Source: Dehalococcoidia bacterium (GTDB lineage: Bacteria; Chloroflexota; Dehalococcoidia; UBA2979). From it: a stretch of 38,099 nt of DNA. Below, piece by piece: positions 13,413-30,906 of the stretch (position 1 is its first letter; every line of letters starts with the position of its first letter). The stretch is from assembly GCA_022451865.1 (NCBI GenBank), contig JAKUNM010000008.1:1-38099 (forward strand), given 5' to 3'. Below the pieces are notes generated by a model. It searched no databases, was not told the origin of the DNA, and saw only the letters and a list, made by a program, of their open reading frames with translations. Both the position numbers and the translations under genes were made by a program.

Positions 13413-13991
13413 CTAAGTCTCTTCTGGTCGACTAAAGCCATGAAAACCATCCGAACCTGGCTCAACATCAAAAGAGCGCAGCTGAAAAGCAACCATGGTA
13501 TAAAATCCTAATAGGCTAGACATTTCTGTAAGGCCACGTTCACCAAATAGGTCAATAACTTTGTTATATAGATCATTAGATAATGATTTACCTGTCAATA
13601 GAGTCATTGAGAGATCATAGGTGACCAGAACATCATCCCTATCAGAAAATGGACGATTACCGATTTGAACATCGTCTAGTACCGATTGAGGGATACCATA
13701 CTCGACGGCCCGATCTGCATGTGTCCATTCAACATTTGACTGCCAGTAAAATGCAGCAACTGAAATAGCGAATTCAACAATCCCACGATCGAGGGATGTT
13801 TTTTCCCAAAACCATAATCCAAATGTACGCATTTGATGACATAATTCTGGGCTACGAAACCATGGATCATAAGGACCACCCCAATAACCAGATTCTGGCA
13901 CACCTTTATAAAAGCGGACTAAACTATCAAATTCTGTCTTTGTTACTTCATCCATTGTTGATGGATCAGGTATTGGACCTAAACGACTCAT
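13413..13991 (-). CDS. Carboxymuconolactone decarboxylase-fold (AhpD-like) protein without redox cysteines
   Basis: This is an all-helical protein of 192 residues. The stretch SNVEWTHADRAVEYGIPQ (about residues 104-121) has the E..W..H..A...G pattern of the carboxymuconolactone decarboxylase / AhpD superfamily. The CxxC pair of AhpD peroxidase partners is absent, so a thiol redox role is unlikely. ATG13991 has AGGA six bases upstream and is preferred over the TTG14021 extension. Family members act on lactones or unknown substrates. It is convergent with the MFS gene (7 bases) and divergent from the LDH2-type dehydrogenase. Confidence 0.8.
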   Translation of the reverse strand: MSRLGPIPDPSTMDEVTKTEFDSLVRFYKGVPESGYWGGPYDPWFRSPELCHQMRTFGLWFWEKTSLDRGIVEFAISVAAFYWQSNVEWTHADRAVEYGIPQSVLDDVQIGNRPFSDRDDVLVTYDLSMTLLTGKSLSNDLYNKVIDLFGERGLTEMSSLLGFYTMVAFQLRSFDVEPGSDGFHGFSRPEET

Positions 13992-14120
13992 AAGCTTTCC
14001 TATCCTATTACCAACCTTCAATAAGATTATTTTGATTCAATTCTTCAAAACATTACCATCATCTGCATATAATTGCCTTAGAATATCTTGTAAATATAAC
14101 TAGTTTAGATCGGAATCTTC

Positions 14121-15212: not shown

Positions 15213-16199
15213 TTATTGAACAATCCAATTAAGTGATTCACCTTTACGCCATCTTAATAAGTTTTCAAAAAATCTTTCCGCAGATCGTTCATGGTATTTA
15301 TCGGAAATCGCCGAATTATGTGGGCTGATAATTACATTAGGCAATTCCCAAAGTAGTGAAGTTGAAGGTAAAGGTTCTTCTTTAAAAACATCAAGATAAG
15401 CACCACCTAAATGTCCTGAAATTAATTTTTGCGTCAATGATTCTTCATCGACCACAGGACCACGTGACACATTTATGATCCGTGATCCTTTTGGTAATTT
15501 TGACAAACGTTCAGAACTAATCAAACCTTCCGTCTCATCATTAAGTGGGCAAGCCAGAATTAACCATTCAGCACTCGGCAAAAGATTATCAAGATCACTA
15601 TTATGGTATAACTCATCGACACCTTCCGGAATATCATTGACGTTACGTCTAACACCAATGACACGCATTCCGACAGATTTTGCATACCGTGCCACACGGC
15701 TACCTATCTCACCTAGGCCAATGATTAATAATGTTTGTCCTGCAATATCAGGAGGCGCATCATCATAATGGATAGGGTCCCAAACATGCTGAGCTTGCAA
15801 TTCACGCCAATATTGAAAAGGCCTCCCTAGCCAAAGTATAGCCGCCAAAACATTCAGTGCAATTGGTTCGGCATTAGCACCAGGGGAATTTGTAATTGAT
15901 ATATCACGCCCCAACAGTTGGGGAAAGTTTTTAGGATTAATACCAACAGCAAAAAAATGTAACCACTGTAGATTTTTTGCACGATTCAAAGTCTCCAAAA
16001 AAATATCGCGACGATAACGGACATCATTGGAAAAAAAAGCAACTTTGACATCATTCAGAACGTCATCAGGTATAATTTGATCGTTATCGACATCAATTAT
16101 AATGCGAGTAGTTTTTAATCCTGGACCAGATTCTGCCTGGTATAATTCAGCATCAAATCGTTCAACAAATTTCTTACTGAGCAGGATCCCAGAATTCAT
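15213..16199 (-). CDS. D-isomer-specific 2-hydroxyacid dehydrogenase
   Basis: This is a cytoplasmic NAD(P)H-dependent enzyme of 328 residues that interconverts 2-ketoacids and D-2-hydroxyacids. The Rossmann motif GLGEIGSRVARYA is followed by the catalytic Arg in NVSRGPVVDE, Glu in FKEEPLP and His in SPHNSA. All three catalytic residues are present. The SPHNSA form and layout resemble glyoxylate/hydroxypyruvate reductases of the GhrA type. ATG16199 has GGAGGG upstream. It is the last gene of the UGSC operon, 27 bases after the preceding stop, so its product probably processes the hydroxyacid or ketoacid of that pathway (inference). Confidence 0.9.
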   Translation of the reverse strand: MNSGILLSKKFVERFDAELYQAESGPGLKTTRIIIDVDNDQIIPDDVLNDVKVAFFSNDVRYRRDIFLETLNRAKNLQWLHFFAVGINPKNFPQLLGRDISITNSPGANAEPIALNVLAAILWLGRPFQYWRELQAQHVWDPIHYDDAPPDIAGQTLLIIGLGEIGSRVARYAKSVGMRVIGVRRNVNDIPEGVDELYHNSDLDNLLPSAEWLILACPLNDETEGLISSERLSKLPKGSRIINVSRGPVVDEESLTQKLISGHLGGAYLDVFKEEPLPSTSLLWELPNVIISPHNSAISDKYHERSAERFFENLLRWRKGESLNWIVQ

Positions 16200-16226: not shown

Positions 16227-17309
16227 TTAGAACGAATCAATTGGGCGAGTTATGGCTTTTTCAGTAGCTGACCATGTTGGAATGAACGTAGCCTTAATAC
16301 CAACACCACCAGTAACAATTATTAGTATGTCCTCAGGCGATACAGCAGCAAAGACACTTTCCGATTCTGTAATGCCTAATTCTTCTCGATTTGCTGTTAT
16401 GCGAGATACAGAATGTGAAGGCAACCAAGACAATGGAGTCATTGATTCTGTGTATAAAGCTTCTTGAAATCTTTCCCTATCCCATCCTTGTTCAGAAAGA
16501 AATTTTGCAGACTCTGGAGGAAGAAGAATTACTGGTTGACCACCACCAAATGATTGTCTACCTAAATTACCTGCAATTAACATTGAGCGCGACATAGTAC
16601 GTACCACCTCTTCAGCTGTGGTCTGTGGAAGTACAACTTCAACACTTCCAACTCCAGCAATTACGGTTACAGCGCTCTCATCGATATTAAATCCACGCGT
16701 GGTATGAAAAGGTGCCCATACACTATCTTCTTCATTTTCAGCTATTAACCAAGTATATTTACCAGGATGACCATGTGTCGCCATATCACCACTACCTGGA
16801 ATAGCAAAGGCTATATTTTGTAAAGCTAACCGAATGGCTCTCCCGATAGTTCCATTCGGTTTCCATCCTTGCCCCAATGCATTGTGTGAGCTATTTATAT
16901 GAAGTTCATTAATTATTGGACCATTCAGAGCAATTAGTGGTGCAGCCGCTCCAGTAGTTGTTTGAATGCCTAAAAGATTAAAATCAGGATCTGTCATGGC
17001 GTCCAAAGCTGATGCAATCAATGGAACAACACCAAGACCACAGCCAGCCAAAACAGCACACGCAGCAATATCACCTAGAGTTGGAATCACAAAGCCTGGA
17101 GGAAGAGGTAATTTAGTCGCTGGCAACTGAGAATTTAAGCCTCCCAGCATTTGATTTATTTTCTCTGCAGTAGGAGCAATTACTGGAAGCCCATCTGTAA
17201 GTCCAGCATTATAAAGTACTAAATTAGCACTATCAGCATTTATAAATTGATCTTCAAGATCGGCTAAACGTTCACAAATAGGTCGTACATCTAAGGGAGG
17301 AGTCGTCAT
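16227..17309 (-). CDS. UGSC-associated conserved protein, paralogue B (function unknown)
   Basis: This is a 360-residue soluble protein homologous along its whole length to the preceding gene product. Shared blocks are TDGLPV..PT near residue 38, AVLAGC, FNLLGIQTTT, LNGPI..E..IN, GQG..PNGTIGRA, PGSGD.ATHGHPGK and AENEEDSVW. The Asn, Gly, His and Glu rich conserved positions look like an active or ligand-binding site. I cannot name a characterised family. ATG17309 follows an in-frame TTG used by the ORF track. It starts 13 bases after the paralogue A stop, suggesting stoichiometric production and perhaps a heteromer. Confidence 0.75.
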   Translation of the reverse strand: MTTPPLDVRPICERLADLEDQFINADSANLVLYNAGLTDGLPVIAPTAEKINQMLGGLNSQLPATKLPLPPGFVIPTLGDIAACAVLAGCGLGVVPLIASALDAMTDPDFNLLGIQTTTGAAAPLIALNGPIINELHINSSHNALGQGWKPNGTIGRAIRLALQNIAFAIPGSGDMATHGHPGKYTWLIAENEEDSVWAPFHTTRGFNIDESAVTVIAGVGSVEVVLPQTTAEEVVRTMSRSMLIAGNLGRQSFGGGQPVILLPPESAKFLSEQGWDRERFQEALYTESMTPLSWLPSHSVSRITANREELGITESESVFAAVSPEDILIIVTGGVGIKATFIPTWSATEKAITRPIDSF

Positions 17310-17322
17310 CAAAAAAATCTAA

Positions 17323-18399
17323 TCAAGCAAAAATAGAACGTACTGGTTCGCCCTTTGCCGTCTCTATCCTTCTTGAAACTGTATCAGTGCCACCAAATGT
17401 AGGTAACCAACATGAATGTTTCCCTGGACCTCCAGCAACTATCACATCAATATCGTTCCAGTTTTCAGCAACACGGAATCCTTCTGGATGTACTGCGCCT
17501 GATGTACCGCTTCTTCCTCCATCTAACCAATCTTGTGCTTGATCACTAAATTTAAGTATTGTGTTTTCCCAAACAAATTTTTTAACATCGTCTTTAGAAT
17601 ATCCATCATGAGCAATTTGATCTGCATGTTCAGGACCAAAAATAATCATTGGTTCACCTCGGCCACCAATATTATTGCTACCTGATTGCCGTAACGATGT
17701 AGTGACTGTAGTTAGAAGACCTTTGCCACTAATGCTTCCATGATCATTGATATTATGTGGAGCTTCACAAGCTAATACTGTAACGACATTGTCATCATTA
17801 GCAAATCCATTTTCGACATGAAGTGGCTCCCACGGACTCGCTGTTTCGTTTTCTGCTGTGCAAAAAGAGATTTTAGCTGGAGTCCCGTGAGTAGCACGAT
17901 CTCCATCACCAGGAGTACCCCCTCCAATATTTAGTAGCGACAAACGCACAGCACGTCCTATTGTCATATTCGATCTTGTCCCTTGCCCAAAACAATTTGG
18001 CCCGCTATTGATACCGATTTCTTGTGCGATAGGGCCATTCAAAAGGACGAAAACAGCACAAGGATGAGTCGTAGATTGTATACCATTTAAGTTAAATTCA
18101 TCTTGAGCAACTGCTTGTAATGCTGCTATCACTACAGGAAAATATTCTGGACGACATCCTGCCATCACCGCATTTGTAGCAATCCGCTCTAAAGTAGCCT
18201 CACCATTACGTGGACCCAAAGTTGCAATTAAATCATCACTGTTCCAATCAACATATTCACAAATTTCATCAACTCGTGAACGAGTAGGTGGCACAATAGG
18301 CAGACCATCAGTCCATCCTTGTGTCTCAAAAAAGTCTTGTACAGCTTCTAATGAGTCTTCTAGTTCAACAATTGGTGGCAGATCAAGATTAACTGACAT
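17323..18399 (-). CDS. UGSC-associated conserved protein, paralogue A (function unknown)
   Basis: This is a 358-residue soluble protein that opens with GWTDGLPIVPPT after about 28 residues and then shows AVMAGC, FNLNGIQSTT, LNGPIAQEIGIN, NMTIGRAVRL, PGDGDRATHG and TAENETASPW. The same blocks occur in paralogue B, so the two arose by duplication and diverged. No signal peptide or membrane segment is seen. ATG18399 has TGAGGA upstream. It follows the UGSC selenoprotein gene by 63 bases. I recall GWTDGLP-type proteins next to UGSC genes but know no biochemical role, so none is assigned. Confidence 0.75.
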   Translation of the reverse strand: MSVNLDLPPIVELEDSLEAVQDFFETQGWTDGLPIVPPTRSRVDEICEYVDWNSDDLIATLGPRNGEATLERIATNAVMAGCRPEYFPVVIAALQAVAQDEFNLNGIQSTTHPCAVFVLLNGPIAQEIGINSGPNCFGQGTRSNMTIGRAVRLSLLNIGGGTPGDGDRATHGTPAKISFCTAENETASPWEPLHVENGFANDDNVVTVLACEAPHNINDHGSISGKGLLTTVTTSLRQSGSNNIGGRGEPMIIFGPEHADQIAHDGYSKDDVKKFVWENTILKFSDQAQDWLDGGRSGTSGAVHPEGFRVAENWNDIDVIVAGGPGKHSCWLPTFGGTDTVSRRIETAKGEPVRSIFA

Positions 18400-18462: not shown

Positions 18463-18984
18463 TTAATCAGCACCCATTAAGCTACTTACTGAAGAAGCAG
18501 CATCCGGAACTTTCTTTAATACTTCTTCTGGATCAATTCCTCCAAGTGGATGTTCTATGGTTATGATCCGTAAATCAGGAAAACCCATAGCGCGAGCCTG
18601 AAGGTGAGCTAATTGAATAAAAGCGCTGGTTGCTAAAGTAACTGTTGGAGTTCCTCTTTTTTCAAGTTCTACAGAAGCGTGGATACTCCACGCTGTACAA
18701 GAACCTCAATCAGCACTCCCAACCATTACCCAATCATTCTCAGCAGCTAACTCATCAAGTATAGCTGGATCAGCAGGAGTTGAAACTGGCTTGTGACGAG
18801 TCATGGAATGTATTACGCCATATCTTTGACCTAACTCTTCGGCAATAGAAGTCATCACAAGTTCTGCATGTTGTTTCCCATTCTCCAGAACACCAACTAT
18901 TGATTCCCTTATTTCAGGAAAATCTTCTAGTTCACCTACAGCTGCAGGTTCTGGAGCAGTAGGGTTATGTAATTCAATAACCAT
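18463..18984 (-). CDS. UGSC-family selenoprotein with in-frame TGA decoded as selenocysteine
   Basis: The ORF track reports only the first part (ending at 18706), because TGA 18708-18706 is read as stop. The same frame continues 80 codons to TAA at 18463-18465, giving 173 residues. The junction reads VGSAD-U-GSCTAWS, with Sec93 and Cys96 forming the UGSC motif of a selenoprotein family described from marine metagenomes. A downstream Rossmann-like pattern (VELEKRGTPTVTL, later IEHPLGG) completes the domain. ATG18984 has AAGGAGA at five bases. A SECIS-like hairpin directly follows the TGA. The UxxC arrangement suggests a redox or reductive catalytic role; the substrate is unknown. The Sec machinery (selA, selB, selC, selD) is outside the window. 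Confidence 0.9.
18664..18706 (-). promoter_or_regulatory. Bacterial SECIS-like hairpin for selenocysteine insertion
   Basis: On the coding strand the hairpin begins at the A of the TGA. Stem AGGTTC/GAACTT is followed by a 3-base bulge (TTG), stem TACAG/CTGTA, a 3-base bulge (CTT) on the 3' side, stem CGTGG/CCACG and a five-base loop AGTAT. The loop begins 18 bases after the TGA and has a G at its second position. Published bacterial SECIS rules ask for a loop about 16-37 bases after UGA with a G in its first two positions, so this fits. The element lies inside the coding region, as expected in bacteria. Confidence 0.8.
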
Positions 18985-19046: not shown

Positions 19047-19925
19047 TTAAATACCTATTAAGTTTTCTGGGTTTTTACATACCATTTGATGTACTTGATC
19101 GGCATCAAAGCCTACATCTAAAAGACATTCAATCCACATACCCATTCCTAGTGGTGGAGACGGATTATTGATCTGACCTAAGTCAGTTGAGGCAATAATT
19201 TGCTCAACACCGACTGCTTTAATTTGTTCAGCAATGGAACGTACTGACTCACCATCATCGTTTCGAAATGCAGCTAACCCACAATGCTCAATATATACAC
19301 CAAGACCTGCAAGTTCTTGTTGAACTTCTACAGGAATACCAAATGAAGCATGTGTTATAACACTACGGATCCCGCGTTCACGAGCTGTTCGTAACAACAC
19401 TAAAGTTTCTTGCGGTGAAATATGACCACTAGCTAAAACAGCATCATGACTAGCAATTTCATCTAAAATGTCGTGACATTCAGGTAATAATTCACCTGAA
19501 TCATTAAGAATTGGAATACCTGCACCTTTACTAAAAAAATTACCACCACGATCACGATAAGCTGCAGAATCAAAAGTAGGCATCCAAATCACTGTCGCAC
19601 CAATAGCAAGAGAAACAGCTACAGCATCTGGATTCAGACCCCCAACACCCCAATCGAGTGCAACACTGCCATAGACATCTATAGCATCAAATTCTGTATC
19701 AAGTGCCCAAGCAATAGGTTGTGTTGCATAATCGTGACTCTTCAGAACTAACCCCCCCATCCCAGCTTCAATAGCTGAAACAACTAGTTCTCGTGAGTCA
19801 GTACGTCTTTCTGTATAGGGATCTGGAGCAGCATGAACATGCATATCTATTGCGCCGCGTATAATATCCTTTACCTCAGGCCTTAATTCATCTAAGTTTG
19901 TTGCTTGTAAAGCTGAAAAAGTCAT
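19047..19925 (-). CDS. DUF6282-type amidohydrolase-superfamily protein
   Basis: This is a 292-residue TIM-barrel hydrolase-like protein. The N-terminal DMHVHAAPD has the HxH metal motif. Further possible ligands are Lys in VLKSHDYA, His in SGHISPQ and THASFG, and Asp in STDLGQ near the C-terminus. This order (HxH, K/H, H, H, D) is that of amidohydrolase-fold metalloenzymes. ATG19925 has AGGTGG upstream. It is the first gene of the operon leading into the UGSC selenoprotein (62-base gap). A C7 tract at 19752-19758 lies in codons near residue 57. Substrate unknown. Confidence 0.82.
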   Translation of the reverse strand: MTFSALQATNLDELRPEVKDIIRGAIDMHVHAAPDPYTERRTDSRELVVSAIEAGMGGLVLKSHDYATQPIAWALDTEFDAIDVYGSVALDWGVGGLNPDAVAVSLAIGATVIWMPTFDSAAYRDRGGNFFSKGAGIPILNDSGELLPECHDILDEIASHDAVLASGHISPQETLVLLRTARERGIRSVITHASFGIPVEVQQELAGLGVYIEHCGLAAFRNDDGESVRSIAEQIKAVGVEQIIASTDLGQINNPSPPLGMGMWIECLLDVGFDADQVHQMVCKNPENLIGI

Positions 19926-21215: not shown

Positions 21216-22445
21216 CTACCAGGCTGCTTCCATTAAATCAATAGCGTCTTGAAGTGCCTGATCCGCATCTCTTAAGCCAGCATTGAAGTTAAATACTTTG
21301 ATAGTTTCTTTGGCAATTTCAGAAAAGTCTTCTTTAGGAATATTTAGTTCACTAATCCGAGTGGGCATTCCCACTTTTTTGTACAAGTCTTCTATTCCAT
21401 CTGCAATAGCTAATTTGGCATCTTCAGCTGACATATTATCCGCCCATACATCCATAGCTTGAGCAACACGACGAGCAGATTCAATATCTGGTGCAGGGCT
21501 TCTCCGAGCAACTGTAGCAGTAAGAACTGATGTAGATTCACCTTGCCAAACATGTGGATAACGAATATGCAAAGCAGTAGATATGGCATAATTACCTGAA
21601 AAAGCCTGAGTTGCAGGATTTTGGCGACCGCGCACCTGTTCACCGTCATCTTGAACTCTGTTACCCAACAAAGCAGCTACACACAAATCCATGCGTGGAC
21701 CAATGTCATTTGGATTTTCATAAATTCCTACGTAACCTCTTTTCATTAGTCGCAGAATATGTTCCTTATCTCCTTCCACCAAAGGATTAGAAGGAATAGC
21801 AACAGCAGCAACGGATCCAGCAAATCCTGTAGTCGCCGTAGACCTAAATAATTCATAAGGAGAGTCCAAAATTGCTTCGTGGTCAAATATCAATCCAATT
21901 GGACGTGTTTTTGGATCAAAGTATTCCATCCGTTGATCAAGATCTGGATTGGCTAATCCGGATCCACCTCGATTCATAGCACCCGTAGGCGTAGTAATGA
22001 CATTAATAATAGGCAATTTAGGAGCATTCAAACGCGGGCTATATGCCGGTTTACCTTCAGGATACTGGGTCATAATTTCAAAAGGGTCACCATCTTCACA
22101 AAGGAAAATATCGACTACACGTGTTGCAACAATTACACTCCCGCCACCAACTGATATCAATAAATCTGCTCCTGCTTCTTTGGCAGCTTCTGTCGCCGCT
22201 ACAACTGAATTGTATGTTGAATCAATTTCAATACCATCAAAATAGCCTGCAAAAGAATCGCCAAGAGCACCTTTAATTCGTTCAATATTTCGTGTTTTAC
22301 TCGAGATTGATTTAGAACAAATAACAAATGGACGTTTCGCACCAGACCGAATTACTAATTCTTTCAAACGATCTTCTATAACTTCTTCACCAGCGAACAA
22401 TCGCCAATCAAAACCTCGCGCAGCAAAAGAATTAACATCGCTCAT
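21216..22445 (-). CDS. Iron-containing alcohol dehydrogenase / maleylacetate reductase-like protein, metal site not conserved
   Basis: This is a 409-residue dehydroquinate synthase-fold protein. An N-terminal nucleotide-binding domain carries SVGGGSVIVATR, followed by a TTPTGAMNRGG stretch, and the rest is the helical C-domain. Standard iron-ADHs have an Asp-x3-His pair and two later His as metal ligands. Here the corresponding helix reads TTGFAGSVAAV, without Asp or His, while one HVW..ES segment remains. It is therefore either a metal-free reductase (maleylacetate reductases can be metal-independent) or has a changed reaction. ATG22445, with AAAGG upstream, is preferred over GTG22460. It is followed downstream by chrA in convergent orientation. 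Confidence 0.8.
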   Translation of the reverse strand: MSDVNSFAARGFDWRLFAGEEVIEDRLKELVIRSGAKRPFVICSKSISSKTRNIERIKGALGDSFAGYFDGIEIDSTYNSVVAATEAAKEAGADLLISVGGGSVIVATRVVDIFLCEDGDPFEIMTQYPEGKPAYSPRLNAPKLPIINVITTPTGAMNRGGSGLANPDLDQRMEYFDPKTRPIGLIFDHEAILDSPYELFRSTATTGFAGSVAAVAIPSNPLVEGDKEHILRLMKRGYVGIYENPNDIGPRMDLCVAALLGNRVQDDGEQVRGRQNPATQAFSGNYAISTALHIRYPHVWQGESTSVLTATVARRSPAPDIESARRVAQAMDVWADNMSAEDAKLAIADGIEDLYKKVGMPTRISELNIPKEDFSEIAKETIKVFNFNAGLRDADQALQDAIDLMEAAW

Positions 22446-22474
22446 ATGACGACCTTTCACTAGGTTAGCAATAT

Positions 22475-29663: not shown

Positions 29664-29700
29664 ATAGTCAAAGTAATATTTTAAATTTAATGGAGTGAAA

Positions 29701-30906
29701 ATGACAGAAAATAATTATAAATATCGAGGTTTTGGAACAAGGGTATTTTCTGGGAACGAAGCTTTAGGAAATCTGCGAGCAGAAGTTGAAAGATTAGAAG
29801 CAAAAAAAGCTTTTATTGTTTGTGGACAATCAATTGCAAAAGAAAAAAAATTGCTAGAGAGAGTTAAAAAAGAATTAGGCACTCGTTTTGCTGGAATATT
29901 TGATGGATTACAAACTGACTCACCGGCTCCTATTGTAGAAGAGGCTGCACAGGCAGTAGAAAATGCTGGTACGGACTTAATAATTCCCGTCGGTGGTGGA
30001 ACTGCTGCAGTGAGTGCACGCGCAATTGCCATGCGAATTGGAGAACAAAAATCATTTCATGAAATGGCTACAAAATACCCACCAAATCAATTACCCGTCA
30101 GCCCTAAATTACTGTCACCAAAAATTCCAATAATTCAGATCTTAACATTGCCCACAACTGCAATGTTAAGATCAGGTGCAGCAATCAAAGACATGGATGA
30201 ATTGAGAAGGATCGAATTATATGATCCGAAAACCAGGGCGATTAGTATGATTTGGGATACTGAGGCAGTTATGACAGCTGCACCCGACGTTTTCCTGAAT
30301 ACTTGTATGGGCTTCTTAAGTGGATCAATAAGAAATTTAGCACAACCATCTCCTGTTGCTATTGCACATGCCGATCACGTGGAGGTATTCCACTTAGCAA
30401 AAAAATATGTACCTCAAATTATTAGTGCACCTAACGATCCAGAGCCTCGGATGCAACTGATGGCTGCCGGTTACATGATTAATCGATCATCAGAATATGA
30501 TTCAACAGATCAACCACGTGCTAATTTCTCAATACTATCAGGTGCTGGCGGATCTATTAACACACGTTATAAATGTGGTCAGGGCCCTTGTGGAGCCGTC
30601 TTAGGACCTGCTTCACTCCGCTATAGCCTGCCAGCAGCTGAAAGTGATCTAGCAATCGCAGCACGTGCAGTGGGTATAGCGGACAATTCAACTACTGACG
30701 CCATAGCTGCAGAAGCCGTGATTATAGAAATAGAAAATTTTTACAAAGCAATAAATCAGCCTTCTCGTCTACGTGATCTTGGAGTCCCCAAAGAAGACAT
30801 CCCACGAATTGCAGAAGATACTATGATACATTTCTTCATACGGCATGACTCACGCACATCAAATCATCAAGCGGATCTAGAAAGAATGCTTGAAGAAATT
30901 TGGTAG
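29701..30906 (+). CDS. Second iron-ADH / maleylacetate reductase-like protein, metal site lost
   Basis: This 401-residue paralogue of the 21216-22445 gene has the same N-terminal layout: YRGFGTRVFSGNEAL, then PVGGGTAAVSAR, then ILTLPTTAMLRSG. The Asp-x3-His helix is replaced by CMGFLSGSIRN, and the later His pair by a CGQGPCG stretch, so no standard metal site remains. GGAG lies five bases before ATG29701, which is preferred to GTG29695. The Cys pair is a possible new feature of this copy. Its position after the VOC gene and before crotonases suggests a role in CoA-thioester or ketoacid chemistry, but the reaction is open. Confidence 0.78.
   Translation: MTENNYKYRGFGTRVFSGNEALGNLRAEVERLEAKKAFIVCGQSIAKEKKLLERVKKELGTRFAGIFDGLQTDSPAPIVEEAAQAVENAGTDLIIPVGGGTAAVSARAIAMRIGEQKSFHEMATKYPPNQLPVSPKLLSPKIPIIQILTLPTTAMLRSGAAIKDMDELRRIELYDPKTRAISMIWDTEAVMTAAPDVFLNTCMGFLSGSIRNLAQPSPVAIAHADHVEVFHLAKKYVPQIISAPNDPEPRMQLMAAGYMINRSSEYDSTDQPRANFSILSGAGGSINTRYKCGQGPCGAVLGPASLRYSLPAAESDLAIAARAVGIADNSTTDAIAAEAVIIEIENFYKAINQPSRLRDLGVPKEDIPRIAEDTMIHFFIRHDSRTSNHQADLERMLEEIW

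Follow-up and report, generated by a model that had tools for sequence, protein, structure and literature searches.

What do two adjacent paralogous proteins without a known function do beside the gene of a selenoprotein? We addressed this question for proteins A and B, encoded in a 38,099-nt window that is one contig of a draft genome of 1.4 Mb (85% complete). The minus-strand gene order is a DUF6282 (PF19799) gene (19047-19925), the UGSC selenoprotein gene (18463-18984), B (17323-18399), A (16227-17312) and a D-2-hydroxyacid dehydrogenase-like gene (15213-16199). The mechanical ORF call placed the start of A at a TTG at 17312; an ATG at 17309 is the more likely start, and the gap from it to the stop of B is 13 bases. 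Both reading frames were found as an earlier note on this DNA had described them, and A and B aligned end to end with 33% identity and 52% positives (E 6e-55). Because this alignment is far beyond chance, it confirmed that the two adjacent, diverged proteins are paralogues. Elsewhere in the window we observed two iron-containing alcohol dehydrogenase genes (21216-22460 on the minus strand and 29695-30906 on the plus strand), both of which scored far under the NCBIfam cut-offs for named subfamilies, and a minus-strand gene (13413-14021) for a 202-aa protein that gave no credible match in Pfam and NCBIfam searches.

We named the family of A, B and their relatives TDGLP. When A, B and 64 diverse relatives were compared with the Pfam and NCBIfam models there was no consistent match, profile searches of the PDB gave no credible relative, and none of these comparisons found a known reaction, in line with the earlier statement that A and B have no known function. 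Plasmid records with annotation label the homologues 'hypothetical protein'; TDGLP is a widespread but uncatalogued protein family. A sequence check found no internal duplication within TDGLP, and a search for phage carriage gave no match. The AlphaFold2 model of B was confident (pLDDT 92.9, pTM 0.93), and Foldseek found no match for it in the PDB at E <= 0.001. Its best hits were the folds of class I fumarase and cyclic amide hydrolase (Toblerone), the top one being a fumarase at E 2.7e-3 with a TM of about 0.26. Membership in either group was rejected at a TM of about 0.3 or lower and an rmsd of 11-17 A, and Pfam gave no consistent sequence match to them. A known-enzyme fold was likewise rejected, the candidates being sub-threshold fumarase, cyclic amide hydrolase and ThiL/SelD-like local matches. 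The earlier note had set its reading against a match to a characterised enzyme family; none appeared.

The blocks TDGLP, FNL.GIQ, LNGPI, TIGRA and AENE were common to A and B. The earlier note had also listed THG.P.K and had placed an enzyme or cofactor site at conserved Asn, His and Glu positions. Across 148 TDGLP relatives (B numbering) Glu183 was invariant, and Arg149 (147), Asp31 (146) and Asn144 (145) were near-invariant, so the Asn and Glu of that proposal stood. The His of THG.P.K occurred in only 28 of the 148 and is therefore no family feature. The pattern of conservation suggests that the near-invariant Asp, Asn, Arg and Glu form an active site. Cys82 was present in 137 relatives; we rejected it as a strict partner of selenocysteine (Sec) because the 11 relatives without it include some beside an intact UGSC.

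The UGSC gene, the next one upstream of B, scored above both curated cut-offs (PF24696, 142.9 bits against 25; NF041046, 129.5 bits against 125) and encodes a protein of 173 residues with one in-frame TGA (18706-18708, minus strand) within the motif D-U-G-S-C. The RNA following this TGA folds as a strong SECIS-like hairpin (18661-18709, minus strand; apical stem 18676-18694; z -4.2). An energy-based hairpin scan against codon shuffles was weak alone, with a mean z of -1.6 for Sec genes and -0.9 for Cys genes, and the case for the hairpin therefore rests on its conserved core, CGTG[GC]AGTNT[GC]CACG. This core was found at a fixed distance in 69 of 90 Sec genes and in none of six Cys homologues, and one of its base pairs shows a G-C/C-G exchange across loci. 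SelA and SelB genes are present in the genome. A tRNA-Sec was found in both congeners, and the search of this 85% complete assembly did not find one. Taken at the sequence level, this is strong evidence that the TGA is read as Sec. The second Cys of the U-x-x-C motif was invariant in 43 diverse UGSC proteins. The UGSC genes at L232:5378-5947 (Paracoccus ferrooxidans) and L215:7422-7712 (Acidovorax sp. T1) appear in their annotations as hypothetical proteins that are short or split; apparently the Sec TGA had been taken for a stop. L217:9054-9866 (Arthrobacter sp. ERGS1:01 plasmid) encodes a Cys-type UGSC with a C-terminal NifU-like domain and ends a trxB-trxA-TDGLP-UGSC run.

A 2008 metagenomic study (PMC2398784) describes UGSC, known since GOS (255 cases), as an abundant selenoprotein without an assigned function, and it was still listed without function in 2026 (PMC13188914). 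A literature search for SAR202 together with selenoproteins found nothing. The 2008 study suggests a thioredoxin-like fold for UGSC, whereas our model (pLDDT 96) was Rossmann/flavodoxin-like, with alternating beta-alpha units and the Sec at the third strand-helix turn. Its best structural matches include flavodoxins, TIR and other Rossmann-like domains, and sequence searches gave no credible relative in the PDB. We rejected the thioredoxin fold since the model does not show the beta-alpha-beta-alpha-beta-beta-alpha order with a C/U-x-x-C in its first helix. Profile comparison instead related UGSC to GrdB: the UGSC profile aligned to the GrdB Sec domain with an hhalign probability of 95.9 (E 5e-9), Sec and HP[LI]G motif included, and the NCBIfam match was weak (0.0026). 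By this profile evidence UGSC is homologous to the C-terminal Sec domain of GrdB (TIGR01917/PF07355).

We then considered whether TDGLP and UGSC belong together. We counted five genes for TDGLP and four for UGSC in this genome; each of the latter adjoins one of the former. From public genomes, 80 loci were retrieved through TDGLP; a UGSC gene lay no more than 400 nt away in 73 of them, and three of the remaining seven begin at a contig edge. In the reverse direction, TDGLP was found in 27 of 28 newly fetched Chloroflexota loci retrieved through UGSC, a few of which overlap. Both gene orders occur: of 119 pairs, 97 have the UGSC gene upstream, and the median gap between the two genes is 73 nt. 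A mirror-tree comparison of the 119 pairs gave r = 0.81 on raw distances that include species history; no value above 0.12 arose in 500 permutations. The earlier note had proposed a search for fusions to UGSC domains; single open frames running from UGSC into TDGLP turned up in eight Chloroflexota loci, three of which were read, and fusions also occur in Sporomusa termitida, Vibrio europaeus and Variovorax boronicumulans. TDGLP and UGSC are one genetic and evolutionary module, and we are almost certain that TDGLP is the partner of UGSC, a partnership that the earlier note had raised and that linkage, co-divergence and natural fusions bear out. A few TDGLP loci without a nearby UGSC (L048, L107 and L117) would suit the view that A and B make an independent enzyme and UGSC is a functionally unrelated operon neighbor. 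The near-universal adjacency, in either gene order, the co-divergence and the single-chain fusions in several lineages leave that view very improbable. The UGSC literature does not name TDGLP as a standing partner. The 2008 study reports a UGSC fusion to an unnamed domain, 'Unknown_1', which may be the same domain as TDGLP (PMC2398784).

The presence of two TDGLP copies had led to the idea that A and B form an obligate heteromer. B is of the main TDGLP type. The family tree groups A in an old clade (support 0.987-0.995) whose ten second-copy members come from this Chloroflexota group, Alphaproteobacteria and Blastococcus, and every A-type protein has a B-type gene in the same locus (10 of 10 loci). 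A retains the near-invariant residues and is thus no obvious dead copy. Haloarchaea have separate duplications, in several of which UGSC lies between the two TDGLP genes; since these are distinct from the A clade, paired copies have arisen more than once, which fits hetero-oligomers. These patterns make an A/B heteromer plausible in the loci of the second-copy clade. Most TDGLP loci are single-copy, so the heteromer is no property of the whole family and the earlier idea holds in this narrower form.

Thioredoxin is linked to the pair in two ways. Several TDGLP proteins of about 535 aa, four of which were scanned, have an N-terminal thioredoxin/AhpC-like domain, with C-x-x-C in some and C-x-x-S/T in others. 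TrxR-like genes adjoin the pair or lie close to it on contig C9 of this genome and in family relatives, Reyranella-type bacteria, Roseovarius, two Variovorax and Haloterrigena; the gene order is trxB, trxA, TDGLP, UGSC in Arthrobacter and TDGLP-UGSC-trxB in Roseovarius. Most TDGLP-UGSC loci have no adjoining thioredoxin gene. The fused domains, together with the neighboring trxB or trxB-trxA genes, point to a selenoenzyme that thioredoxin recycles, and because TDGLP and UGSC are almost always together and sometimes fused, they most likely constitute one thioredoxin-fed selenoenzyme. We consider it probable that TDGLP-UGSC is a thioredoxin-linked redox enzyme.

Other neighbors of the pair bear on what such an enzyme might act upon. 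DUF6282 recurs next to it from this Chloroflexota group to haloarchaea, and the DUF6282 gene of the window probably shares an operon with the pair. The D-2-hydroxyacid dehydrogenase-like gene downstream of A is on the same strand, and its association was seen at this locus only. CoA transferases, TctC receptors, MmgE/PrpD, isocitrate-lyase-like and AcnX enzymes and an amidohydrolase also occur. TctC receptors made up 19 of 78 same-strand neighbors and are very abundant in Betaproteobacteria. The neighbors are in keeping with a breakdown of small organic acids, yet they change from locus to locus; a single shared substrate read from gene context was rejected as they are too varied. Thioredoxin and TrxR links would also accompany a thiol/selenol redox-maintenance or detoxification system (peroxidase- or disulfide-reductase-like) in which TDGLP is a scaffold or docking protein rather than a substrate-binding one, and selenoproteins of known function are mostly antioxidant enzymes (review PMC9312934). 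We regard such a role as improbable, since up to four diverged paralogous pairs per genome fit substrate-specific metabolism better, the pair is placed among catabolic genes (CoA transferases, DUF6282, amidohydrolase, isocitrate-lyase-like) and the near-invariant residues of TDGLP suggest an active site.

The explanation that we favor, by a modest measure when taken as a whole, is that A and B are the large subunits of a selenoenzyme, with UGSC as the redox subunit, that works as a thioredoxin-recycled reductase. Judged from conservation alone, TDGLP would bind a small, probably carboxylate-bearing substrate through Asp31, Asn144, Arg149 and Glu183. The Sec of UGSC would attack or reduce this substrate, the Cys of U-x-x-C would resolve the intermediate as a selenenylsulfide, and a thioredoxin, either separate or fused to TDGLP, would re-reduce the center from NADPH together with a TrxB-type reductase. 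In the A/B type, B and A would probably act as a hetero-oligomer with A as the derived second copy. Such an enzyme would reduce its substrate or cleave it reductively, much as the GrdB half of glycine reductase does, but alongside a partner subunit that is unrelated. That TDGLP-UGSC specifically cleaves a C-X bond in a carboxylate is a doubtful extension of the scheme.

Some fused relatives have lost the Sec and the resolving Cys, so that redox chemistry is not universal in TDGLP-UGSC. In the plasmid-borne fusions L219:7323-9044 (Sporomusa termitida) and L220:7374-9056 (Vibrio europaeus) the Sec is replaced by Met and the Cys by Ser, and each lies near aconitase X (AcnX) and DUF126 genes; the Sec position of L198 is occupied by Thr. 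The two plasmid-borne fusions are a possible non-redox branch. Such replacements leave two options, a change of function in the lineages concerned or a core reaction that is non-reductive. Under the second option TDGLP-UGSC would be an isomerase, racemase, lyase or hydratase-like enzyme using Sec or Cys as nucleophile or in acid-base catalysis, and thioredoxin would merely keep the selenol reduced in aerobic cells. Cys acts as nucleophile or acid-base in Asp/Glu-racemase-type Rossmann domains, and both the predicted Rossmann/flavodoxin-like fold of UGSC, with its Sec at a strand-helix turn, and the AcnX-type dehydratase genes beside the fused forms without Sec or Cys are consistent with this option. 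The invariance of the second Cys in the 43 UGSC proteins argues against it, and trxB-trxA operon membership and the GrdB match exceed what acid-base chemistry needs; we judge a non-reductive reaction unlikely.

The 2008 study places UGSC among the most abundant selenoproteins of ocean metagenomes (PMC2398784). The present analysis gives UGSC a standing partner with a confident model, a relation to GrdB and a likely thioredoxin supply. Culturable hosts (Arthrobacter, Roseovarius and haloarchaea with natural Cys versions) make the scheme testable even without selenoprotein expression. We put forward, at slightly less than even confidence, a new widespread class of selenoenzyme complex that joins a GrdB-type Sec domain to a thioredoxin-fed substrate subunit of an undescribed fold. 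Through paralogy, including the A/B hetero-oligomers and the independent haloarchaeal duplications, it would have branched out into several catabolic pathways, and some lineages would have dropped the Sec chemistry.

Finally, we compared the pair with known systems. A published classification puts PrdB of D-proline reductase (PrdA/PrdB) with UGSC in one broad group of U-x-x-C selenoproteins (PMC9312934); no proline reductase genes were identified in this analysis. Same-class relatives (L149-L165) encode small stand-alone proteins whose match to the GRDB model covers its last 140 positions and is closely followed by an in-frame TGA; they are apparently another group of GrdB/PrdB-like selenoproteins. 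GrdB of glycine/sarcosine/betaine reductase shares a U-x-x-C-type motif with UGSC, whereas the 173-residue UGSC lacks the N-terminal part of GrdB. TDGLP matched neither GrdE nor GrdB and was rejected as a relative of GrdE or of that N-terminal part for want of profile similarity (probability 0.4% for TDGLP against GrdE). Searches of this genome found no match to PF07355 (the part before the Sec) or to PF09338 (GrdE-type). Among the neighbors of the pair as surveyed by their general annotation, no gene for a GrdA-type acceptor was noticed. Since neither a GrdE-type partner nor a full-length GrdB was found, TDGLP-UGSC does not belong to the glycine reductase complex. Thioredoxin system genes accompany grd operons, as they do the TDGLP-UGSC pair in part of its loci, and the way the pair works may resemble that of a part of the GrdB system.
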